From: Betaproteobacteria bacterium
GTDB taxonomy: Bacteria > Pseudomonadota > Gammaproteobacteria > Burkholderiales > Rhodocyclaceae
Assembly: GCA_028868235.1 (NCBI GenBank)
Contig: JAGWUW010000029.1
Coordinates: 1-13,866 of the forward strand
Direction of reading: 5' to 3'
Length of the DNA stretch: 13,866 nt
Shown here piece after piece: positions 548 to 9,836 of the stretch. The stretch's first letter is position 1, and each line of letters starts with the position of its first letter. Both the position numbers and the translations under genes were made by a program. A model generated the notes under the pieces. The model had not been told where the DNA came from. It saw only the letters and a list, made by a program, of their open reading frames with translations, and searched no databases.

Positions 548-576
548 GCTGCGCCGGGGTGATGAGTGCGCTGCTT

Positions 577-582
577 TATAAT
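577..582 (+). promoter_or_regulatory. TATAAT -10 hexamer before the ArnT-like gene
   Basis: A perfect TATAAT lies 7 bases upstream of the ATG at 590. No good -35 hexamer is found at 16-18 bp, and the TGn extension is absent. If it is used, transcription would begin at about 589-590, giving a leaderless mRNA for the ATG at 590. It would also argue against the ATG at 581, which overlaps the hexamer. Confidence 0.4.
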
Positions 583-589
583 GCCGGCC

Positions 590-2233
590 ATGCGAGCCCG
601 TGACCTCCCTTCCGCCATCGAGCGCTTCCTGCTGTCGCCGTTCAGCCTGCTGCTGGCCGTGTTGATCGCCTTCGTACTGAACGCCTACAGCCTGCCACTG
701 ACTGACGTGGACGAGGGCGCCTTTTCGGAAGCGACGCGCGAAATGATGGCGCGCGGCAATCTGGTCTCGCCTACCTTGAATGACGCACCGCGCCACGACA
801 AACCTATCTTGATCTACTGGGCGCAGGCCGTTTCGGTCGGCGCGCTTGGCGTCAGCGAAATCGGCTTCCGCTTGCCGTCCATCGTATTTGCCGTACTGTG
901 GATGCTCGCGCTCTACCGTTTCTGTGCCCGCCACACTGACCGGCGAACAGCACAGGTGGCATCGCTGGTCATGGCCCTGTCGCTGGCCGTCGGATTCGTC
1001 GCCAAGGCGGCAATTTCCGACGCCTTGCTCAACCTGTTCATCGCCTTGTCGATGTTCGGTGTCTACGATTATTTCTGCGCTGTGCGCGACGGCAGAGGCG
1101 ACGGATTGACGCGGCGCCTGCTGTTCTACACTTACGCCATGCTCGGCCTCGGCTTTTTAACCAAGGGGCCGGTTGCCGTCTTCTTTCCGCTTGTTGTCAG
1201 CGGAGTGTTCTTTGTTTCGGCCGGTGCCTGGCGGGCCTGGCTGCGCGCCATCTTCTTCTGGCCGGGCTGGTTGATCTTCCTGGCCATCGTCGTACCTTGG
1301 CACGTGGCGGTTTATCTCGACCAGGGCGATGCCTTCTTCCGAGGCTTCTACCTCAAGCACAACGTTAATCGCTATTCCAACACCTTCGAAGGTCACGGTG
1401 GCAAGTGGTACTACTATCTGCTTGTCCTGCCCTTCGTGCTGATGCCCTTTTTCGGCTGGCTGCTGGCCATCGTCGGCAAGCTGCTTGGCCGGCTGCGCCG
1501 CGTGCCACTCGGTACGATGTGCAGCGAAGGCTTGATCGAGCGTTTCCTGCTCATTTGGTTCGTCGTTGTGTTCGCCTTCTTCTCGTTTTCCGGCACGCAA
1601 CTGCCGCATTATCTGCTCTACGGCTGCACGCCAGTGTTCGTCCTGCTGGCTATATATCGGCCGGATTTCGAGCGGCGCTGGCTGGTTTACCTGCCCTTGA
1701 TTCTCTTCGCACTGATCTTGGCGGCCCTGCCGGAGGTTCTCGTCTTCGCCGCCGACAAAGCCGGCAAGCCGTTCGAGAAAACCCTGCTCGAAGGTCTGGT
1801 ACTGGCCTTTTCCGACCAGGCGCGCTGGCTGCTTCCACTGCTGGCGGTAGTTTCCATCGGGCTGGCGCTGTGGCGTGCCTTGCCTGTCTGGCAGGGCTTG
1901 GTGCTGGCTGCTCTGCTACAGGCGGTGCTGGTTTCCGCGGTGATCGCTCCGCGCGTTATCGGCGTCACTCAGGGGCCGATCCGCGAGGCCGCGAAGGTGG
2001 CCAAGGAGGCGGGCGGAACGGTCGTCGCCTGGCGCATCATTATGCCCAGCTTTAGTGTCTATCGGCAGGCTGCGACGCCGACGCGTGTGCCGGTCGAGGG
2101 CGAACTGGTCCTCACTCGTACCGACCGTCAGCCTGAAGTCCAGGCCTTGCTGGCTCCGGGACTGCGCATGAAGAACCTTTACCAGAAGAGCTTTGTCACA
2201 CTGGCCCGTGTCGAACGGGGGGGGCAGCCGTGA
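590..2233 (+). CDS. ArnT-like GT39/GT83 glycosyltransferase (integral membrane)
   Basis: Multi-pass inner-membrane glycosyltransferase of the PMT/ArnT superfamily. Such enzymes move a sugar from a polyprenyl-phosphate donor to an acceptor such as lipid A or protein on the periplasmic side. From the ATG at 590 it has 547 residues, the usual ArnT length. Seen: a first membrane helix at about 17-34; the acidic catalytic-loop motif D39-V-D41-E42 followed by GAFSEATREM; HDKPILIYW at 69-77; RLPS near 94; LTKGP at 190-194; then many hydrophobic helices and a soluble C-terminal part. Starts at 566 (GTG) and 581 (ATG) are possible; 590 is preferred because TATAAT covers 577-582. The TGA overlaps the GTG of the PAP2 gene, so they are co-translated. 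A run of eight G (2217-2224) lies just before the stop. The sugar and the acceptor cannot be read from sequence; no arn donor-synthesis genes are in view. Confidence 0.82.
   Translation: MRARDLPSAIERFLLSPFSLLLAVLIAFVLNAYSLPLTDVDEGAFSEATREMMARGNLVSPTLNDAPRHDKPILIYWAQAVSVGALGVSEIGFRLPSIVFAVLWMLALYRFCARHTDRRTAQVASLVMALSLAVGFVAKAAISDALLNLFIALSMFGVYDYFCAVRDGRGDGLTRRLLFYTYAMLGLGFLTKGPVAVFFPLVVSGVFFVSAGAWRAWLRAIFFWPGWLIFLAIVVPWHVAVYLDQGDAFFRGFYLKHNVNRYSNTFEGHGGKWYYYLLVLPFVLMPFFGWLLAIVGKLLGRLRRVPLGTMCSEGLIERFLLIWFVVVFAFFSFSGTQLPHYLLYGCTPVFVLLAIYRPDFERRWLVYLPLILFALILAALPEVLVFAADKAGKPFEKTLLEGLVLAFSDQARWLLPLLAVVSIGLALWRALPVWQGLVLAALLQAVLVSAVIAPRVIGVTQGPIREAAKVAKEAGGTVVAWRIIMPSFSVYRQAATPTRVPVEGELVLTRTDRQPEVQALLAPGLRMKNLYQKSFVTLARVERGGQP
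2217..2224 (+). repeat. G8 homopolymer at the glycosyltransferase/PAP2 junction
   Basis: Eight consecutive G lie three codons before the glycosyltransferase stop. In the reading frame they form G-GGG-GGG, a heptamer on which two glycine tRNAs can re-pair after a -1 shift. A -1 slip, or one added G, joins the frame to the PAP2 start at 2230 without a stop. The run may also serve as a weak ribosome site for the PAP2 GTG. Confidence 0.6.
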
Positions 2234-3069
2234 AGGATGAAGCGCTGTACGCCCGGCATCCATGGTTCGATGCCGGGGTCCTGGTGACCTGTCTGGTGCT
2301 GGCCGTAGCGCTGCTCGGTGTGTGGCAGAGCAATAGCTGGCAGGGGGGGTTCTTCATCGGTCAAGCTGCCGGCAGGCATTTGCCGCCGGTGCTCTGGGAG
2401 TCGTTGACGACGCTGGGCGACGCGCGTGTACAACTGGCCCTGATGCTGCCCTTCTGCCTGCGCTACCCGCGGGTATTCTGGGCGCTGTTTCTCGGCGCCT
2501 TGCTCGCCGGAGCGGTAAGCCGTGGGTTCAAGACGGCCGTTCCCTTGCCCCGTCCGGCCGCGGTGATCGATGCGGCGCAGATCACCATTATCGGTGCCAA
2601 GCTGATGGCGCACAGCTTTCCTTCCGGGCATACGGTGTCGGCTTTTTCTTTCGTCGTCGCCTGGCTTGCGCTGTTTGGTTGGCGCGCCGCACCGTTGGTA
2701 TTGCTTGCCGCGCTGGCCGGATTTTCCCGGGTGGCGGTTGGTGCCCACTGGCCGGTCGATGTGTTGGCCGGGGCGATGGTTGGCCTGCTCGGCGGTTGGC
2801 TTGGCCTGCGCCTGAGCGGCTGTTTCCGCTGGGGGCTGGGCGTGCGCGCCCACTGGTTCCTGATTGTCCTCTCCGTGGTCGCCGTGGCGACGCTGCCGTT
2901 CGACGGCCAGGGCTACCCGGATACATTCCCTTGGCGCGTCACCGCCTGTCTGTGGGGGCTTGGCGGGTTTGTCGCAGTCTATCTGCTGCCCCTGTTTGCC
3001 TTGGGCTGGCAAGAGGTCAATCGTGAACTGGCGGACTGTGCCCCGAAAAAGATGCCCGGGCAGGGCTGA
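2230..3069 (+). CDS. PAP2-family membrane lipid phosphatase
   Basis: Integral membrane phosphatase of the PAP2 superfamily (phosphatidate, undecaprenyl-pyrophosphate or lipid A phosphate as possible substrates), 279 residues. All three catalytic motifs are intact: K101-x6-R108-P109, P131-S-G-H134, and S166-R167-x5-H173-x3-D177 (SRVAVGAHWPVD). Hydrophobic helices flank them, and further helices continue to about 258. The start is the GTG at 2230, whose bases overlap the upstream TGA; no in-frame ATG fits and only the G8 run resembles a ribosome site. Pairing with an ArnT-like transferase suggests recycling of the spent polyprenyl carrier or dephosphorylation of the same glycolipid. Supplying diacylglycerol to the downstream GT4 enzymes is another option. 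The motifs make the family secure; the substrate is not. Confidence 0.85.
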   Translation: MKDEALYARHPWFDAGVLVTCLVLAVALLGVWQSNSWQGGFFIGQAAGRHLPPVLWESLTTLGDARVQLALMLPFCLRYPRVFWALFLGALLAGAVSRGFKTAVPLPRPAAVIDAAQITIIGAKLMAHSFPSGHTVSAFSFVVAWLALFGWRAAPLVLLAALAGFSRVAVGAHWPVDVLAGAMVGLLGGWLGLRLSGCFRWGLGVRAHWFLIVLSVVAVATLPFDGQGYPDTFPWRVTACLWGLGGFVAVYLLPLFALGWQEVNRELADCAPKKMPGQG

Positions 3070-3173
3070 TTCTCCGAGCGGCGGTTGCCGCGCCTACGGG
3101 AAAATCACACTATCGCGCGGGCGGCAAATTGGACAAAATCCTCCCTCCTCATTTCTTGCTGTGACCGAACAAT

Positions 3174-3953
3174 ATGACGCTGCATGAAGCCCTTCTCGTC
3201 GCTCTCGGCGCCTTTCTGGCTGGAGGCATGAACGCCATCGCGGGAGGGGGGACATTCTTCTCCTTTCCTGCCATGCTTGCTGCCGGGGTGCCACCTGTTA
3301 CGGCCAATGCCAGCAATACTGTTGCACTCTGGCCGGCCAGCTTGTCCAGCGCCTGGGCTTATCGCAAGGAAGCCATGCGCCATGGGCGCTGGGCCATCTT
3401 GTTGATCATCGTTTCCGTCATCGGTGGTCTGGCCGGTGGCTTGCTGCTGCTCGCCACGTCGAATGCTGCCTTCTCGGCACTGATCCCCTGGTTGCTTCTG
3501 GTTGCCACCAGCTTGTTCGCCTTCAGCGCCCAAGTTAGTCGGCTCGTTGCATGGGGCAAGCGGCGCTTTGGCGCGGCCTCGAGTGGCGAGCCGGGGGGAG
3601 GCATCGGTGGTGCGCTGTTTCAACTTGTCGTCGCCATCTACGGCGGGTTCTTTGGTGCTGGTATGGGCATCCTGACCCTGGCAGCGCTGTCCATTCAGGG
3701 GTATGAGGACATGCAGGAACTCAATGCCTTGAAGAACCTGACCTCTGCGGTGAATTACACCATCGCAGCAGCGACCTTTCTGATTGCGGGTGCGATCAGT
3801 TGGCCGCATACCTTGGTCGCCCTGGGCACGGCAGCCATCGGTGGCATGGCAGGGGCGGCCGTTGCCAAGCGTATGCCGGCGATCTGGCTACGACGTCTGG
3901 TGATCGCAGTCGGCGCGACGTTGACCATCGTTTACTTCATCAAAACATACTGA
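3174..3953 (+). CDS. TauE/SafE (TSUP) family membrane transporter
   Basis: Inner-membrane protein of the sulfite exporter TauE/SafE family, 259 residues, normal length. The family exports organosulfur or sulfur anions such as sulfite and sulfoacetate. Two homologous halves are visible: the first with NAIAGGGTFFSFPAM at about 20-34 and ASNTVALWPAS near 46-56, the second with YGGFFGAGMGILTLA at about 156-170 and NALKN at 184-188. Around eight hydrophobic segments are present. The ATG at 3174 has no clear Shine-Dalgarno sequence; no alternative in-frame start nearby is better. It lies 104 bp after the PAP2 gene and 62 bp before plcP, and plcP has its own promoter-like signals, so linkage to either is uncertain. 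The substrate cannot be determined from sequence. Confidence 0.85.
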   Translation: MTLHEALLVALGAFLAGGMNAIAGGGTFFSFPAMLAAGVPPVTANASNTVALWPASLSSAWAYRKEAMRHGRWAILLIIVSVIGGLAGGLLLLATSNAAFSALIPWLLLVATSLFAFSAQVSRLVAWGKRRFGAASSGEPGGGIGGALFQLVVAIYGGFFGAGMGILTLAALSIQGYEDMQELNALKNLTSAVNYTIAAATFLIAGAISWPHTLVALGTAAIGGMAGAAVAKRMPAIWLRRLVIAVGATLTIVYFIKTY

Positions 3954-3975
3954 ACGACATCGAAGCGTAATCCAG

Positions 3976-4009
3976 CTGTAACAGGCCGGTCACGGGCGGG
4001 TCTTATCGT
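3976..4009 (+). promoter_or_regulatory. PhoB box and -10 element before plcP
   Basis: Two 7-mers 11 bp apart, CTGTAAC (3976-3982) and CGGTCAC (3987-3993), match the Pho box CTGTCAT-N4-CTGTCAC at 5/7 and 6/7. Ten bases further lies TATCGT (4004-4009), a 4/6 match to TATAAT at the spacing used in PhoB-activated promoters, where the box replaces the -35. The predicted transcription start falls near 4016, which is the plcP ATG. Confidence 0.6.
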
Positions 4010-4015
4010 GGGGCC

Positions 4016-4834
4016 ATGCCCAAGGTCAGATCCGTTTTCTTATCCGATATCCACCTTGGCACGCGGGCGTGCCAGGCGGAACGTCTTCTCGAATTTCTCC
4101 GCGACCACCCCGCCGACCAGACCTACCTGATCGGCGACATCATCGATTTCTGGGCGATGAGCCGCAGCATCTGTTGGTCACAGGCGCAGAACACGGTGGT
4201 CCAGAAGTTGCTGCGCCGGGCGCGGCACGGCGAACGGGTGGTGTTCATTCCCGGCAACCACGATGAAGCACTGCGCGACTACTGTGGCATCGTTTTTGGC
4301 GATGTCGAGGTGGTGAATGAAATGGTTCATGAGACGGCTGACGGCCGTCGCTTCCTACTCATTCATGGTGATCAGTTCGACCAGGTCACACGCCACCATC
4401 GCTGGGTGGCTGTGCTTGGCGACAAGGCCTACGACCTGCTAGTACGCACCAATCACTGGCTATCCTGGGGACGGCGCAAGCTCGGCATTTCCGGCTATTG
4501 GTCGCTAGCCGGCTACGCCAAGCGGAAGGTCAAGACAGCGCTCAATTTCATTTTCGATTTCGAGGAATCGGCCATTCACCATGCTCGCGAGCGTGGCCTG
4601 GACGGCGTGATCTGTGGTCACATCCACTGGGCGACGATCCGCGATATCGACGGTCTGACCTACGTGAACTGCGGCGACTGGGTCGATTCCTGCTCCGCCA
4701 TCGTCGAACACTTCGACGGCCGGCTGGAGCTGGTGAACTGGAGCGAGCGGATGCCGCAACGCCTGCTCGCCGCTCCGCCAAAAGAGGTACAGACGGCGGT
4801 CCCTGCCCAGCTTGAAGAAACAATGGAGGTTTGA
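4016..4834 (+). CDS. plcP: PlcP-type metallophosphoesterase (phospholipase C of phosphate-starvation lipid remodelling; LpxH-like fold)
   Basis: Calcineurin-like dimetal phosphoesterase, 272 residues. Metal-site motifs are complete: D11-I-H13 (LSDIHLGTRACQA), GD41 in GDIIDFW, GNHDE at 80-84, HGD at 117-119 and GHIH at 201-204. LGTRACQA, IHGDQFD, CGHIHWATIRDIDG and NCGDWVDSCSAIVEH recall rhizobial and marine PlcP, which cleaves phosphatidylethanolamine or -choline to diacylglycerol under phosphate limitation. Family members are commonly labelled UDP-2,3-diacylglucosamine diphosphatase, but E. coli LpxH is shorter (about 240 residues) and lacks these segments. Two contexts support PlcP: a PhoB-like box upstream and a coupled diacylglycerol-glucosyltransferase-like gene downstream. 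No Shine-Dalgarno precedes the ATG, and the predicted transcription start coincides with it, so translation may be leaderless. No signal peptide, so it acts on the cytoplasmic face. Confidence 0.8.
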   Translation: MPKVRSVFLSDIHLGTRACQAERLLEFLRDHPADQTYLIGDIIDFWAMSRSICWSQAQNTVVQKLLRRARHGERVVFIPGNHDEALRDYCGIVFGDVEVVNEMVHETADGRRFLLIHGDQFDQVTRHHRWVAVLGDKAYDLLVRTNHWLSWGRRKLGISGYWSLAGYAKRKVKTALNFIFDFEESAIHHARERGLDGVICGHIHWATIRDIDGLTYVNCGDWVDSCSAIVEHFDGRLELVNWSERMPQRLLAAPPKEVQTAVPAQLEETMEV

Positions 4835-4835
4835 C

Positions 4836-6017
4836 ATGCGGGTATTGATGGTTTCCGATGTGTATTTTCCGCGCGTCAATGGAGTCTCGACCTCCATCGA
4901 AACTTTTCGGCGCACGCTGGCAGCACAGGGTGTCGAGGTCCGGTTAGTCGTGCCACGTTACAGCGACGAGCCCGATGAGGAGGGCATCGTCCGGGTTGCC
5001 GGTCGCCCAGTTCCCGGCGACCGCGAGGACCGCTTGGTCGGCTGGCGGGCGATGCACCAGGCTGTGCAGGCCGAAGCCCGAACGTGCGACCTGATCCATG
5101 TGCAGACCCCTTTCATCGCGCACTACGCAGGGTTGAAGGCGGCACGGGCGCTGGGGCTACCGGTTATCGCCACCTATCACACGCTGTTCGAGGAATATCT
5201 GCAGCACTATGCTCCCTTCCTGCCCGCCGCCTGGCTGCGTGGACAGGCTCGGCGTTTCTCGCGCCGCCAGTGCAATGCCCTCGACGCCGTGGTCGTGCCC
5301 TCGAACGCGATGCGCCAGCGGCTCGAAAACTATGGTGTGACGACCCCTCTGCATGTGCTGCCGACCGGCATCCCGATTGCTCAGTTCGGTGGCGGGAATG
5401 GCATGGCCTTCCGGCTACGCAATGGAATTGTCGAAGACCGACCGATGGCGTTGTTCGTCGGACGCGTCGCACATGAGAAAAATATCGGCTTCCTGCTCGA
5501 AGCGATACTGCAGGCACGGCAATCGTGTCCCGAGATCCTGCTGGTGATTGCCGGCGAGGGGCCGGCGATGGGCGATCTGCAAGCCAAGGTAGGCGTGTTG
5601 GGCTTGCAACAGGCGGTTTTGTTCATCGGCTATCTCGACCGTCGACAAGCATTGCCCGATTGCTACGCGGCAGCCGACGTCTTTGTCTTTGCCTCGCAGA
5701 CCGAAACCCAGGGTCTGGTGTTGCTTGAAGCGATGGCGGCGGGGGTACCGGTTATTGCCTTGGCCGAAATGGGGACGATCGATATTCTGGCGCCGGGGCG
5801 CGGAGCGCTATCGCCGCCGGCCGATGCACAGGCCTTCGGCGATACACTGGGTCATTTCCTCAGCCGGCCTACGGCTTGGCGGCAACTGGCCGATGAGGCG
5901 CCGATCTACGCCAGCGAATGGAGCGATGTAGCGATGGCCGAACGTCTGGCGGCACTCTATCGCAACCTGCGCGCCCCGCAGTTCGTGCCGGAGAACCCGC
6001 TCAGCGCTGCCGTCTGA
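4836..6017 (+). CDS. agt: GT4 glycosyltransferase, probable diacylglycerol glycosyltransferase (Agt-like)
   Basis: GT-B fold retaining glycosyltransferase, 393 residues. N-terminal MRVLMVSDVYFPRVNGVSTS resembles the acceptor-side segment of monoglucosyldiacylglycerol synthases, and YHTLFEEY (114-121) is the YHTxxExY pattern of that branch. The donor half shows VGRVAHEKN (208-216; R210, K215) and the EX7E motif E290-TQGLVLL-E298. Start chosen at the ATG 4836 because GGAGGT (4825-4830) lies five bases upstream, inside the last codons of plcP; the plcP stop is one base before the ATG. The two genes are therefore coupled. In known systems Agt puts glucose or glucuronic acid on the diacylglycerol released by PlcP, replacing phospholipids. 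The sugar specificity is not readable here; a lipopolysaccharide or polysaccharide role is the alternative. Confidence 0.78.
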   Translation: MRVLMVSDVYFPRVNGVSTSIETFRRTLAAQGVEVRLVVPRYSDEPDEEGIVRVAGRPVPGDREDRLVGWRAMHQAVQAEARTCDLIHVQTPFIAHYAGLKAARALGLPVIATYHTLFEEYLQHYAPFLPAAWLRGQARRFSRRQCNALDAVVVPSNAMRQRLENYGVTTPLHVLPTGIPIAQFGGGNGMAFRLRNGIVEDRPMALFVGRVAHEKNIGFLLEAILQARQSCPEILLVIAGEGPAMGDLQAKVGVLGLQQAVLFIGYLDRRQALPDCYAAADVFVFASQTETQGLVLLEAMAAGVPVIALAEMGTIDILAPGRGALSPPADAQAFGDTLGHFLSRPTAWRQLADEAPIYASEWSDVAMAERLAALYRNLRAPQFVPENPLSAAV

Positions 6018-6023
6018 GGTGAA

Positions 6024-7340
6024 TTAAAACTCAGCGTGCAGCCTGAGCGACAGGATATTTGCCGGGCCGCGATCAGCGTTATAGGCCGGGTTCTCGACGT
6101 GCTGGTAGTCGGCTGTCAGCCACACGCCGGACATGGCCTTCCAGCTGTAGTAGGTCTCGAAGATATTCTCCGGGTTGTAGCGCAGCTTGCCATCACCGAT
6201 GAAAAAGGAGATCCCCCCTTGCGCCAGGTAGTCACGCCGCTCGTTTGAGATGGTATTGCGTATCCAGGAGATACCGAAGGTATCGTCAGATCGATTCCAG
6301 CGCCCTCCCTTGAGCGAGAGGCCGGTGGCGAACGAGCCGTCGGCCTCGGTGAAAGCGTAGGTTTCGGTGCGGCCATCAGCGTGCATCCCGCGCAAAAACC
6401 AGCCAAGATCGTCGGCGATTTCCTGTTCGATATTGATACCGAAGCCGTACTTGATCCGTTCGCCATTGCGAACGTAGTTAATGGCTTGGGGGTCGCCGCC
6501 GGGATTGGCCTCCAGCCAGGCGCTGGCATCGGTGTAGGCGGCTACTTTTGCTCGGTTGCGGAAGGTGAGCAAGCGGACCTTTCCTGGGCGATCGGCAATC
6601 TTGTGGGCATGCTCGATTTCAAACTGGTCGCCGTAATGGTGCAGGATTTGGAAGTCGAGCGCTGTGCCGTTTGGTGTTTTCGGTCCGGTCATGCGTCCAA
6701 AGCGCCATACCCAGTCACCTTGGTACCACTCGGCGGCAAAACCCCAGCCGAAGCCCCGGGCGTCTGCCGCATAGTCGAAGGGGGTAAGCGCCATATTGCT
6801 CCAGTTCAGGAACTGAGTGCGCGGGTCTTTGGCGTAGGCGTTGTCATCGAAGATGTCGAGGGTCGAGAAGTTGCCGACGGTCAGTACGAAGCGGTCCTTG
6901 GCGACGCGACCGGCCATTTGGTTGAACTCGGATTCCTGATATTCGGTTTCGTCGCCCAAGCCCCAAGTCTGGCGCAGGAATAGGCGCTGCCGATAGGCTT
7001 TGAGGGTATTGCCGGAAACTCGGGTCGCCTCACCGTTGGTGAAACCGCCCAAGCCAGTCAGTCCGGACATCGGGTCGCCCTGACCCGCCTCGATATTGAG
7101 ATAAACCTCGCCACCTTTCCACAGTCGGGCGCCGAGAAAGGCCGTGGAGGTAAATGTATAGCTACTTTCGCCATTTGCCAGAAGACTATTCGTGCCGCTA
7201 TAGCTGGCATGAAATGGGCGGGAGTTTTGCGAAACGTAGGTAGCCTGGCCCTTGAGTTGCCAGTCCTCCTGCACCTCTTCAGCGGCGTGTGAAGCCGTTG
7301 CTACAGCCAGGGCGAGAAAAAGGGCGGAACGTTGGAGCAT
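6024..7340 (-). CDS. OprB-family carbohydrate-selective porin, likely PhoB-controlled
   Basis: Outer-membrane beta-barrel of 438 residues, the OprB family size. A signal peptide is clear: M-L-Q-R, a hydrophobic stretch LALAVATA, then SHA with cleavage before AEEVQ. Family-like segments include VYLNIEAGQG, LTVGNFSTLDIFDDNAYAKD, FLNWS, DYAADARGFGWGFAAEW, the late TADYQHVENPAYNADRGPA and the terminal LRLHAEF with C-terminal F, as expected for barrel assembly. Alternating hydrophobic strands fill the rest. The ATG at 7340 gives the signal peptide; the open frame extends upstream to 7634 but that part overlaps the divergent gene and its promoter. No Shine-Dalgarno is seen in the predicted ~24-base leader. 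It is convergent with agt (6 bp between stops). A strong PhoB box lies upstream, unusual for OprB, which in Pseudomonas is induced by sugars. Confidence 0.85.
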   Translation of the reverse strand: MLQRSALFLALAVATASHAAEEVQEDWQLKGQATYVSQNSRPFHASYSGTNSLLANGESSYTFTSTAFLGARLWKGGEVYLNIEAGQGDPMSGLTGLGGFTNGEATRVSGNTLKAYRQRLFLRQTWGLGDETEYQESEFNQMAGRVAKDRFVLTVGNFSTLDIFDDNAYAKDPRTQFLNWSNMALTPFDYAADARGFGWGFAAEWYQGDWVWRFGRMTGPKTPNGTALDFQILHHYGDQFEIEHAHKIADRPGKVRLLTFRNRAKVAAYTDASAWLEANPGGDPQAINYVRNGERIKYGFGINIEQEIADDLGWFLRGMHADGRTETYAFTEADGSFATGLSLKGGRWNRSDDTFGISWIRNTISNERRDYLAQGGISFFIGDGKLRYNPENIFETYYSWKAMSGVWLTADYQHVENPAYNADRGPANILSLRLHAEF

Positions 7341-7370
7341 GGGCGCGATGATCAAGGCAAAAAACGGCGA

Positions 7371-7404
7371 ATTATAGGCGCCCAGCGTGACAGTCGGGTG
7401 ACAA
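7371..7404 (-). promoter_or_regulatory. Near-consensus PhoB box with TATAAT, porin promoter
   Basis: On the minus strand TTGTCAC (7398-7404), four bases, CTGTCAC (7387-7393), ten bases, TATAAT (7371-7376). The repeats match the Pho box at 6/7 and 7/7 (C allowed at the last position), the 11-bp period is exact, and the -10 hexamer is perfect at the classic PhoB spacing. Transcription should start near 7364. Confidence 0.75.
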
Positions 7405-7407
7405 AAC

Positions 7408-7441
7408 CTGTCATCGCCGTGTAGCGATGGTCGATTAATCT
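7408..7441 (+). promoter_or_regulatory. Weaker PhoB-box-like site facing the second GT4 gene
   Basis: A perfect CTGTCAT (7408-7414), four bases, then GTGTAGC (7419-7425; only about 3/7), ten bases, then TAATCT (7436-7441), a poor -10; ATTAAT at 7434-7439 is a better hexamer but two bases closer. It lies four bases from the porin's Pho box on the other strand, so one PhoB cluster could serve both genes. Confidence 0.4.
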
Positions 7442-7463
7442 GGGCCGTAAACCGGGAGCAGCC

Positions 7464-8603
7464 ATGTACGCATCGAAACCGCTGGATATCGCCTTCGTTA
7501 CCGAAACCTTTCCCCCCGAGATCAACGGCGTCGCCATGACGATCGGTCGTCTGGTCGGTGGCCTGCGTGAACGCGGTCACCGTATTCGTATCGTCCGTCC
7601 ACGCCAAGGACACGCCGATGTCGATAGCGAACACGAGCTGGCCCTGCCGGGTTTTCCGCTGCCCGGCTATCCAGGGCTACGCTTTGGCCTGCCAGCCGGA
7701 CGCCGCCTGCGTCGCGAATGGCATCAGCGCGGGCCTGACCTGGTGCATGTGGTGACCGAGGGGCCGCTCGGCTGGTCGGCGGTCAATGCGGCACGCCACC
7801 TCGGCATACCGGTTACTTCCGGCTTCCATACCAATTTCGATCGATACAGCGTGCATTACGGGCTGGGCTGGATGCGACCGGCGGTCGCCGCGTATCTGCG
7901 CACCCTGCATCGACGGACACGGGCAACCATGGTGCCGACCGCAGCCCTTGCTGCCGACCTTGCGGGCGAAGGCTTGGCCGGTGTGCGTGTTGTCGGTCGG
8001 GGTGTCGATACCCTGCTGTTCGATCCAGAGCGGCGCAGTGCCGCCTTGCGCGCCAGGTGGGCTGCCCCCGAGGCGGCACCGGTTTGCCTCTACGTCGGCC
8101 GTCTGGCCCCGGAGAAGAATTTGCAACTGATTGAGCGGGCCTTTGCCGCCATCCGTCAGCAACATCCCCTCGCCACGATGGTCTGGGTAGGGGATGGACC
8201 AGCAGCGAAACAACTGGCCATAGATCATCCGGATCATCATTTTGCCGGTATGCGTACCGGAGCCGATCTTGCGGCGCATTACGCCAGCGCCGACCTGTTC
8301 CTCTTCCCCAGTCTTACCGAAACTTATGGCAACGTGGTGGCCGAGGCGATGGCCAGCGGCCTCCCGGTGCTGGCCTATCGCAGCGCGGCTGCCGCCGAGT
8401 TGATCGTCGATGGTGAGAATGGCCGGTTGGTTCCCCCGGGCGATGAGGCTGGTTACATCGATATCGCAGCCGGGATGGCTGCTGCCACCCTGAACCGGGA
8501 GCGCCTGGGGGTGGCGGCTCGGCAGGCTATGCTGCCGCATCGCTGGTCGGCGGTGGTCGAACGTTTCGAAATGGTGGTACGTGAAGCGCTGGGCAAAAAC
8601 TAA
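7464..8603 (+). CDS. GT4 glycosyltransferase (MgtA/SqdX-like; possible second lipid glycosyltransferase)
   Basis: GT-B fold glycosyltransferase of 379 residues, related to but distinct from the upstream GT4. Seen: IAFVTETFPPEINGVAMTIG at 9-28; GFHTNFDRYSVHYG at 120-133, the pattern of the MgtA/PimB-type and SqdX-type mannosyl- and quinovosyl-transferase branch; VGRLAPEKN at 211-219; and EX7E as E286-TYGNVVA-E294 followed by AMASGLPVLAY. GGGAG (7454-7458) five bases before the ATG supports the start. It diverges from the porin and its control region holds a perfect Pho half-site. Nearness to plcP-agt suggests it adds a second sugar to glycosyl-diacylglycerol, or makes an alternative glycolipid head group; this is inference. 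Its TAA overlaps the TAG of the opposing response-regulator gene. Confidence 0.8.
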   Translation: MYASKPLDIAFVTETFPPEINGVAMTIGRLVGGLRERGHRIRIVRPRQGHADVDSEHELALPGFPLPGYPGLRFGLPAGRRLRREWHQRGPDLVHVVTEGPLGWSAVNAARHLGIPVTSGFHTNFDRYSVHYGLGWMRPAVAAYLRTLHRRTRATMVPTAALAADLAGEGLAGVRVVGRGVDTLLFDPERRSAALRARWAAPEAAPVCLYVGRLAPEKNLQLIERAFAAIRQQHPLATMVWVGDGPAAKQLAIDHPDHHFAGMRTGADLAAHYASADLFLFPSLTETYGNVVAEAMASGLPVLAYRSAAAAELIVDGENGRLVPPGDEAGYIDIAAGMAAATLNRERLGVAARQAMLPHRWSAVVERFEMVVREALGKN

Positions 8604-8974
8604 GGAAACATGCCTTCGAGGCGTTGCTGTAGCGCACTTGGCGTGAAGGGCTTGACGATATAGCCGGCGGCTCCGCATTGCATGGCGTCGAGGACGTTGC
8701 CACGCTGTCCTTCGGCGGTGATCATGAGGAACGGAATGTGCGCCAGTTTTGAGTCGGCCTTGATCGCCTGGAGGAGCGAGATGCCGTCCATTTCGGGCAT
8801 ATACCAATCGGAAATGATGAGTCCGATTTTCTTGCTTTCCTTCAGTTTGGCCAGGGCAGCTTGTCCATTTCCTGCCTGATGAATCTCGGTGAATCCTGCG
8901 CGCTTGAGGACTTCGACCACGACGCTACGCATGGAGGCGTAATCATCGACGACGAGTGCGGCAGGTTTGGCCAT
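8600..8974 (-). CDS. CheY-like single-domain response regulator
   Basis: A lone receiver domain, 124 residues, with no output domain. The phosphorylation site is complete: acidic pair D10-D11, phospho-acceptor D56 (LIISDWYMP), T86 in MITAEG, K108 in VKPF, with aromatic switch residue Y105. The segment FLMITAEGQRGNVLDAMQCG and GYIVKPFT are very close to chemotaxis CheY, so it probably controls a partner by protein contact, perhaps the flagellar motor or another kinase. No chemotaxis, kinase or flagellar gene is in view, so the cheY symbol is withheld. There is no good Shine-Dalgarno before the ATG. Gene overlap with the convergent GT4 gene is limited to the stop codons (8600-8603). Confidence 0.92.
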   Translation of the reverse strand: MAKPAALVVDDYASMRSVVVEVLKRAGFTEIHQAGNGQAALAKLKESKKIGLIISDWYMPEMDGISLLQAIKADSKLAHIPFLMITAEGQRGNVLDAMQCGAAGYIVKPFTPSALQQRLEGMFP

Positions 8975-9032: not shown

Positions 9033-9662
9033 TCAGCTTGGATTGCCAGAAGCAGTCAGGTAGCGGATTTCCACCAATTCCGGATCGCTCACATGATCAA
9101 CCAGGATACGGCGAACTCTGTCTTGCCACAGTTCACGAAACAGCATGACATCCTCCGGTGTGGCCGTGCCGCCGAGTATGCAGGGGAGCAGTTCGCTCAT
9201 GCGCGGGTCACCGGGGACCCTATGTAGTTGGGCGGTACTGTCCACGCTGGCGCCCGTGTCGCGTCGCGTCAAACGAATACCGCTGACCCCCGTGATCCCG
9301 AAGGAGAGCAGGTCGCGTCGCCTATATCGGCCTCCCAGTCCCTTGAACCCCCCTGCACCAGCTGCGCCGGTCAGCAAGGTGGCGATACTGCCTATGACGC
9401 CGGTCACACCCTCTTCGACCGTCTCCGGCAAGGCAACGGCGATCTGGCCGCGTACCGGCGTGTCGCTTCCGTACAGCGCGCCCAGTCCCCGTATGGTCGC
9501 CAGCCAGGCGCCGGCCACGGTTGGGCAGGCGTGGCCGGCAAGTTTGACGGCATCAGCGAAGGTGTATTCGATCAAGCCGTCATCGGTCGCTCCCAGTACT
9601 TCGGCCAAGGGGTCATACAGTGTGATGCTCGGAATGCGGGAAAAGTATTCGGCAAGTGGCAT
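9033..9662 (-). CDS. FmdE-like (COG2191-type) protein
   Basis: A 209-residue soluble protein resembling the FmdE domain (subunit E of formylmethanofuran dehydrogenase). The cue is FADAVKLAGHACPTVAG near residues 50-66, like the GHxCPG metal-site motif of FmdE, followed by the segment ALYGSDTPVRGQIAVALPE. A glycine-rich stretch (LTGAAGAGGFKGLGGRYRRR) follows, and the C-terminal part contains ELWQDRVRRILVDH. The start at 9662 is chosen because AAGGAG (9669-9674) lies six bases upstream; the frame is open further to 9770 but those residues look random. The protein cannot make formylmethanofuran alone, and no other C1-carrier genes are seen, so the true role is unknown. It lies 174 bp downstream of the DUF1302 gene in the same direction. 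Confidence 0.65.
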   Translation of the reverse strand: MPLAEYFSRIPSITLYDPLAEVLGATDDGLIEYTFADAVKLAGHACPTVAGAWLATIRGLGALYGSDTPVRGQIAVALPETVEEGVTGVIGSIATLLTGAAGAGGFKGLGGRYRRRDLLSFGITGVSGIRLTRRDTGASVDSTAQLHRVPGDPRMSELLPCILGGTATPEDVMLFRELWQDRVRRILVDHVSDPELVEIRYLTASGNPS

Positions 9663-9836
9663 GGCGATCTCCTTGGCTGACATTGTGCTTGTCGGCGAGC
9701 ACCTTGCCTTGATGTATATCGTCCTGCGAGGCGTCGGGTGTGCTGGCGTCGGTCTCAGCTTGCTTCCCATGTCGGTATGGGCAATGGCGGGACTGCCCTG
9801 CTAATTCCCGGATAAGTCGCAACGTGCAGCCGATGC

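Follow-up and report, generated by a model that had tools for sequence, protein, structure and literature searches.

A predicted PhoB-controlled envelope-remodelling island of Azonexus/Dechloromonas with two glycosyltransferase genes and an OprB-fold porin gene

Introduction

How far does a phosphate-controlled lipid swap extend beyond the two genes by which it is recognised? The question is raised by a stretch of 13,866 nucleotides (the window) on contig JAGWUW010000029.1 of the Betaproteobacteria assembly GCA_028868235.1, which belongs to the genus Azonexus/Dechloromonas. The window carries a plcP-agt pair, which codes for a PlcP-type phosphoesterase and a glycosyltransferase of family GT4, and next to it a gene for an OprB-family porin and a divergent gene for a second GT4, here called GT4b. 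PlcP-Agt remodelling is known from Phaeobacter MED193, SAR11 HTCC7211 and Methylosinus OB3b (PMC4796936, PMC9239053), and Pho boxes are marked on the plcP-agt-type genes in PMC4796936. A preliminary description of the window, made from its letters alone, had assigned the porin and GT4b to the same response as plcP-agt. We propose that the region is probably a PhoB-controlled envelope-remodelling island of Azonexus/Dechloromonas, with two predicted diacylglycerol (DAG) glycosyltransferases and a putative phosphorus-uptake porin. The proposal is carried by the gene set, the phase of the Pho boxes, synteny and the joint absence of plcP and GT4b, all read from the sequence, and by the OprB fold of a predicted porin model.

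Results

Pho boxes in the window

The genes named in the preliminary description were all present (Table 1). Pho boxes were scored over the 14 defined positions of CTGTCAY-N4-CTGTCAY in a scan of the whole window; the consensus is quoted in PMC8528852, and the Y in the last place was set for the scoring here. Only two sites in the window scored at least 12, namely the boxes preceding plcP and the porin gene. The half-sites before plcP are, in order, ACGACAT (weak), GCGTAAT, CTGTAAC and CGGTCAC, and the predicted -10 element TATCGT was found 10 bp past the last of them. Tandem 7-bp half-sites with 11-bp spacing, placed 10 bp before a -10 element, are therefore present at both the plcP and the porin promoters. 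The box before GT4b is weaker, and no good -10 element was seen for this gene by inspection of the sequence. The earlier report of Pho-box-like repeats before three transcription units was borne out, the boxes of the porin and GT4b lying in the one intergenic region common to these divergent genes.

Table 1. Island genes and their promoter elements, numbered by position in the window
Feature	Position	Strand	Remarks
plcP	4016-4834	+	Calcineurin-like phosphoesterase (PF00149/PF12850); predicted phospholipase C releasing DAG
agt	4836-6017	+	GT4 (PF13439/PF00534); predicted DAG glycosyltransferase, predicted operon with plcP (gap of 1 bp; pair spans 4016-6017)
OprB-family porin	6024-7340	-	438 aa; PF04966
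GT4b	7464-8603	+	Second GT4 of the island; predicted Pho-response lipid glycosyltransferase, in addition to Agt
Pho half-site array	3954-3993	+	Before plcP, 11-bp spacing; half-sites at -62, -51, -40 and -29 from ATG
Best plcP Pho box	3976-3993	+	12/14 positions; ends 22 bp 5' of plcP
Predicted plcP -10, TATCGT	4004-4009	+	-12 to -7 from ATG
Porin Pho box, TTGTCAC-CCGA-CTGTCAC	7387-7404	-	13/14 positions
Porin -10, TATAAT	7371-7376	-	10 bp past the Pho box
Weaker Pho box before GT4b	7408-7425	+	11/14 positions

Four sites in the window scored 11. One is the GT4b box, another (3978-3995, minus strand) overlaps the plcP box, and the remaining two (966-983 and 8705-8722) are both intragenic. A first-order Markov control gave an expectation of 0.25 sites of at least 12 and 2.3 sites of 11 per window. 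In view of this expectation and of the two intragenic sites, the window alone was deemed suggestive rather than decisive; the Pho boxes become convincing through their conservation in relatives. A search of the window's own genome for Pho boxes with up to 3 mismatches returned 105 matches, against 74 in the reversed control, and was rejected as too loose.

Pho boxes across the genus

Matches to plcP were found in 62 genomes of the genus besides the window's own, and 60 loci were analysed, the fragments of genomes G022 and G036 being left out (genomes are numbered with G, loci with L). The threshold was set at 11 or more of the 14 positions. Sites were observed upstream of plcP in 35 of 60 cases (the window and 59 genus loci), of the porin gene in 11 of 13, of pstS in 4 of 4, of the prokaryotic DAG kinase gene dgkA in 28 of 40, and of GT4b in 8 of the 9 cases where dgkA is lacking. 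Two further genes of these loci scored similarly, one for an outer-membrane-like protein, omp230 (18 of 22), and one for a cyclic-nucleotide-binding protein (21 of 36). Divergent genes use common sites, so these counts overlap, and the upstream stretches of the L092 plcP and the L073 pstS, both running off the contig start, were left out. Among the other genes of the same loci, just 17 of 288 scored. These genes were used for comparison because reversed sequence proved a poor control: the reversed motif itself partly scores, and reversed sequences gave sites for plcP in 10 of 61 and for the porin in 11 of 67 cases.

The plcP sites keep an 11-bp phase: the best one lies at -40, -51 or -62 in 54 of the 60 promoters. 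In the alignment of plcP promoters (61 rows, of which one, L092, is invalid), ten columns of the half-site cores are 91-98% conserved, while the remaining half-site columns and most spacer columns are variable. The six columns of the -10 element, at -12 to -7 from the ATG, are 81-96% conserved, and from this short distance a leaderless plcP mRNA is predicted across the genus.

Neighbourhood of plcP in relatives

The agt gene follows plcP in 60/60 genus loci, and in 47 of them GT4b is found downstream in the same orientation. Among the 13 loci lacking GT4b, the contig stops short in five (L058, L059, L072, L086 and L092), and in G044, G038 and G071 GT4b was located 13-16 kb from plcP. The survey of relatives suggested in the preliminary description thus found GT4b conserved beside plcP-agt; it found the porin patchy (12/60).

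In 40/60 loci dgkA stands ahead of GT4b (in L058 the contig ends inside GT4b), which it overlaps or closely precedes in most relatives (e.g., L046:4956-5372, minus strand). A count of dgkA in 8 other genomes of the genus gave two copies in 6, one copy in 1 and none in 1, the last genome being incomplete. The second dgkA of the six two-copy genomes is housekeeping-like and lies elsewhere in the genome.

Regulatory genes were also found close by. Within 8 kb upstream of plcP, phoB is present in 25/60 and phoR in 27/60 loci, and L072 and L076 hold a contiguous pstSCAB-phoU-phoB-phoR-plcP-agt series, in which the PhoB and PhoR of L072 exceed the cut-offs of TIGR02154 and TIGR02966. The distance to plcP in G017 and G056 is about 8 kb for pstS and about 13 kb for phoB; in the window's own genome both genes are on another contig (C4). 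L072 and L076 are closely related, and two different pstSCAB types stand ahead of the same phoU-phoB-phoR-plcP-agt genes in them.

GT4b and plcP

The co-occurrence of plcP and GT4b was counted in 71 genus genomes with a GT4b threshold of E 1e-90. Both genes were found in 58 genomes, plcP only in 4, GT4b only in 0 and neither in 9 (Fisher p 1e-8, kinship ignored). The 52 genomes that are at least 90% complete gave 43, 3, 0 and 6, respectively (p 4e-6). On a plsC tree (68 of 76 genomes, 18 of 65 inner branches well supported) plcP changes 4 times, providing 3-4 independent pairs, and GT4b goes the same way as plcP in nearly all pairings and never the opposite way. Four further genus genomes hold plcP together with a GT4b match, two of these at only 52-53% identity. 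From its place beside plcP-agt and its absence in all 9 genomes lacking plcP, the assignment of GT4b to the phosphate response is well supported, and this part of the earlier claim held.

In other families, 22 genomes had a plcP match, and 18 were analysed (20 loci). A GT4 gene is near plcP in 15 of these loci, its product being closer to GT4b in 12 and to Agt in 3; L101 has both types. The two types are separated in a tree, whose long branches leave the finer placements uncertain. In L119 and L120, plcP, a GT4 gene and a dgkA-like gene (60-64% identity) are consecutive, so that the DAG-kinase link extends beyond Azonexus.

The porin

The porin scored 111 bits against PF04966 (cut-off 22.9), and 55/55 aligned relatives match this family at E 0.001. 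Its start was assigned to the ATG at 7340, ahead of a signal-peptide-like N-terminus, while a longer open reading frame call extends to 7634. For the predicted model, OprB of Pseudomonas putida (PDB 4gey) was ranked first by both fold methods, with 14% identity in the structural alignment; OprO and OprP scored no better than general porins (Z within 1). A sequence search against solved structures gave nothing at E 0.01.

Within the genus, the porin is present at 68% identity or more in 14/76 genomes; a 42%-identical relative in G024 (L300) was left out of the analysis. Thirteen of the 14 copies are at the island, and the 14th is on an uninformative 3.2-kb contig. Outside the genus, 69 loci were examined among the best 80 of 164 porin relatives, and 67 promoters could be scored, L147 and L199 having fewer than 100 bases upstream. 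Sites of at least 11 were found in 33/67 of these promoters versus 29/478 other genes of the same loci, and sites of at least 12 in 22/67 versus 7/478, a comparison that ignores kinship. By taxon, sites were observed in 4/5 Zoogloea porins and in 15/24 from Comamonadaceae, Limnohabitans or Curvibacter. Eight of the 69 loci hold ppk, ppx, sixA, plcP, pstS or pstB-phoU-phoB-phoR within about 9 kb: ppk, ppx or sixA occur in 7, pst-phoBR in L186 and plcP in 4.

By promoter and context, we read the porin as a PhoB-controlled porin with a predicted OprB fold. The earlier claim that it shares the response of plcP-agt is supported in part only: the Pho response is favoured by this reading, but the porin appears to be an optional member of the island, and its function may lie outside lipid remodelling. 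Its apparent association with phosphate reaches further than the island, yet is not universal.

The product of omp230 (L046:5474-6163, plus strand) is an outer-membrane-like protein of 229 aa whose N-terminus resembles a signal peptide. The gene takes the place of the porin behind the same promoter type in 23/60 loci, and only L090 has both. The L046 copy had no Pfam or NCBIfam match at E 0.001. The gene for the cyclic-nucleotide-binding protein is present in 36/60 loci.

Other observations on the window

The LpxH profiles scored far under their cut-offs with PlcP, and no PlcP-specific model matched. For Agt, the top two NCBIfam matches were lipid glycosyltransferase models, both far below cut-off. 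Ahead of plcP, positions 566-3953 hold genes for an ArnT-like PMT_2 transferase, a PAP2 phosphatase and TauE. The PMT_2 and PAP2 genes recur in relatives, where Pho-box-like sites are rare (2/21 and 1/21, respectively). A 245-aa open reading frame at 9033-9770 (minus strand), with no Pfam or NCBIfam match, adjoins the island, and its relatives occupy the same position in many genus loci.

Discussion

Weighing the interpretation

That the Pho boxes are chance matches retained by common descent was judged very improbable. The two further 11-point sites inside genes of the window and the non-independence of related genomes would agree with it, but it is contradicted by the 11-bp phase of the conserved core columns amid largely variable spacers, by the rarity of sites at other genes of the same loci and by the sites at all pstS promoters scored. 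The role of GT4b was harder to deduce. In the preliminary description, GT4b was thought perhaps to make diglycosyl lipids, for which it would add a second sugar to the monoglycosyl-DAG of Agt. Agt and GT4b are indeed two separate GT4 lineages within one response, and a plcP-adjacent transferase making di- and triglycosyl-DAG in some marine bacteria is described in PMC4796936. However, no agt-type glycosyltransferase is listed within -2.5 to +4 kb in the 12 non-genus loci with the GT4b-type enzyme, which can thus apparently act first on DAG. The pairing of dgkA with GT4b also points to DAG, and DAG is the substrate on which Agt2 of P. aeruginosa acts (PMC8528852). Diglycosyl synthesis was accordingly considered rather unlikely. 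Taken with the Agt1/Agt2 precedent, the dgkA pairing favours a second DAG glycosyltransferase over a diglycosyl synthase; GT4b is most likely such an enzyme, like Agt2 of Pseudomonas aeruginosa.

For the porin, two other interpretations were considered. It could be an ordinary sugar porin, here by chance, with the Pho boxes serving GT4b only. Its OprB family, assigned both by Pfam and by fold, and its patchy occurrence in the genus would fit, but the porin gene has its own box, with the highest score in the window and 10 bp before TATAAT, nearly all genus copies are at the island, and homologues in other families carry sites far more often than the genes around them; the interpretation is therefore improbable. 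The porin could instead be PhoB-controlled and serve to repair outer-membrane permeability or to import sugar for the glycolipids, rather than to take up phosphorus. The OprB fold and the position in a lipid-remodelling island are in keeping with this, as is the secreted, outer-membrane-like omp230 in the same neighbourhood. The recognised phosphate neighbours in other families are, however, polyphosphate genes (7/8 loci) or pst-phoBR (L186), with plcP in just 4/8, and a repair or sugar-import role was considered possible but doubtful.

The proposal of a PhoB-controlled island with two DAG glycosyltransferases and a phosphorus-uptake porin also has to bear several points that weigh against it. 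As regards GT4b, 3-4 independent pairs do not suffice for a significant test, 2 of the 58 assignments (G016 and G019) rest on 50-52% identity, 4 of 62 plcP genomes lack the gene (in two of them the assembly around plcP is fragmentary), and in some genomes, such as G064, it lies far from plcP. In the clade of the window, dgkA is missing from the locus and one copy lies elsewhere in the genome, and in G039 pstS and phoB are about 18 kb and 22 kb from plcP, respectively. As regards the porin, it is at the island in only the minority of genus loci noted above and needs at least 9 gains or losses on the one-gene plsC tree. No site of at least 11 was found in 34/67 non-genus porin promoters, and the reversed-sequence control of these promoters scored as well (11/67). 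Among porins of Gallionella, Sideroxydans, Gallionellaceae or Gallionellales, 7/9 lack a site and 2/9 have one, and 61/69 non-genus loci have no recognised phosphate gene nearby, many of their contigs being short. OprB porins are best known for sugars, and the Pfam name says likewise.

Proposed mechanism

For PhoB binding, the enzyme activities, the sugars and the cargo of the porin, we infer the following scheme. At low phosphate, PhoR would phosphorylate PhoB, which would bind the tandem 11-bp half-sites and turn on plcP-agt and the divergent porin and GT4b genes (dgkA-GT4b in most relatives). PlcP would cleave phospholipids to DAG, to which Agt and GT4b would each add a sugar, giving phosphorus-free glycolipids, probably of two kinds. 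In relatives, the second DgkA may turn surplus DAG back to phosphatidate. The OprB-fold porin would act as a channel under Pho control, either general or for phosphate esters, and increase uptake across the outer membrane, matching PhoE or OprP in function while belonging to another porin family.

Relation to known systems

PlcP-Agt remodelling is already known, as is the presence of two Pho-boxed glycosyltransferases in one response (PMC4796936, PMC8528852, PMC9239053). The island resembles the known PlcP-Agt systems in the tandem of a PlcP-type phosphoesterase and a GT4 (in the window and in all genus loci) and differs in the second GT4, the divergent porin, the dgkA of relatives and its occurrence in Betaproteobacteria. 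Pseudomonas aeruginosa has PlcP and Agt1 (PA3219-PA3218) and Agt2 (PA0842), the two DAG glycosyltransferases using different sugars (PMC8528852). As in that species, a plcP genome here holds two glycosyltransferases whose transcription units each have their own Pho box, but the Agt2 gene lies elsewhere in its genome, whereas GT4b adjoins plcP-agt. The likeness of GT4b to Agt2 is one of predicted role and of Pho box. In P. putida, low phosphate raises PlcP and the DAG kinase DagK together with a PhoBR-dependent porin-like protein (PMC5082522).

The new part is the lineage of predicted OprB-fold porins with Pho-box-like promoters in many Betaproteobacteria. PhoE, OprP and OprO are Pho-regulated phosphate porins; the present porin is likewise predicted to be under PhoB but belongs to another porin family. 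Unlike OprB of P. putida (PDB 4gey), it is preceded by a Pho box and adjoins genes for lipid remodelling. In P. putida BIRD-1, PPUBIRD1_1354 is a PhoBR-dependent porin-like protein of Pfam16930 (PMC5082522); both it and the present porin are Pho-linked outer-membrane proteins with a porin-like annotation, but their Pfam families differ. A cyanobacterial OprB has been suggested to import organic phosphate (PMC7367855), while the excerpt of PMC2621215 has OprB porins with no tie to phosphate, and those of PMC11828411 and PMC11208175 have no bearing on the porin. No report of a PhoB-controlled OprB-family porin was recognised among the matches listed from the open-licence PubMed Central literature, the nearest cases being the cyanobacterial OprB and PPUBIRD1_1354; in the preliminary description, too, such a porin was not known as part of lipid remodelling.

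Significance

We tentatively suggest, as something that may well prove otherwise, that in Azonexus, Rhodocyclus, Zoogloea and many Comamonadaceae (and in fewer relatives of Gallionella) a Pho-regulated OprB-fold porin serves as an outer-membrane channel for phosphate or phosphate esters and was repeatedly taken into, or lost from, the lipid-swap locus of Azonexus. If the porin is PhoB-induced, the "carbohydrate-selective" labels of this lineage would be misleading in many Betaproteobacteria of fresh water and sludge, and its gene would be a candidate for the outer-membrane phosphorus route of these bacteria. The dgkA-GT4b pair, in turn, suggests that the DAG released by PlcP is divided, one branch leading to glycolipid and the other back, which would be a simple and testable design point of the response.

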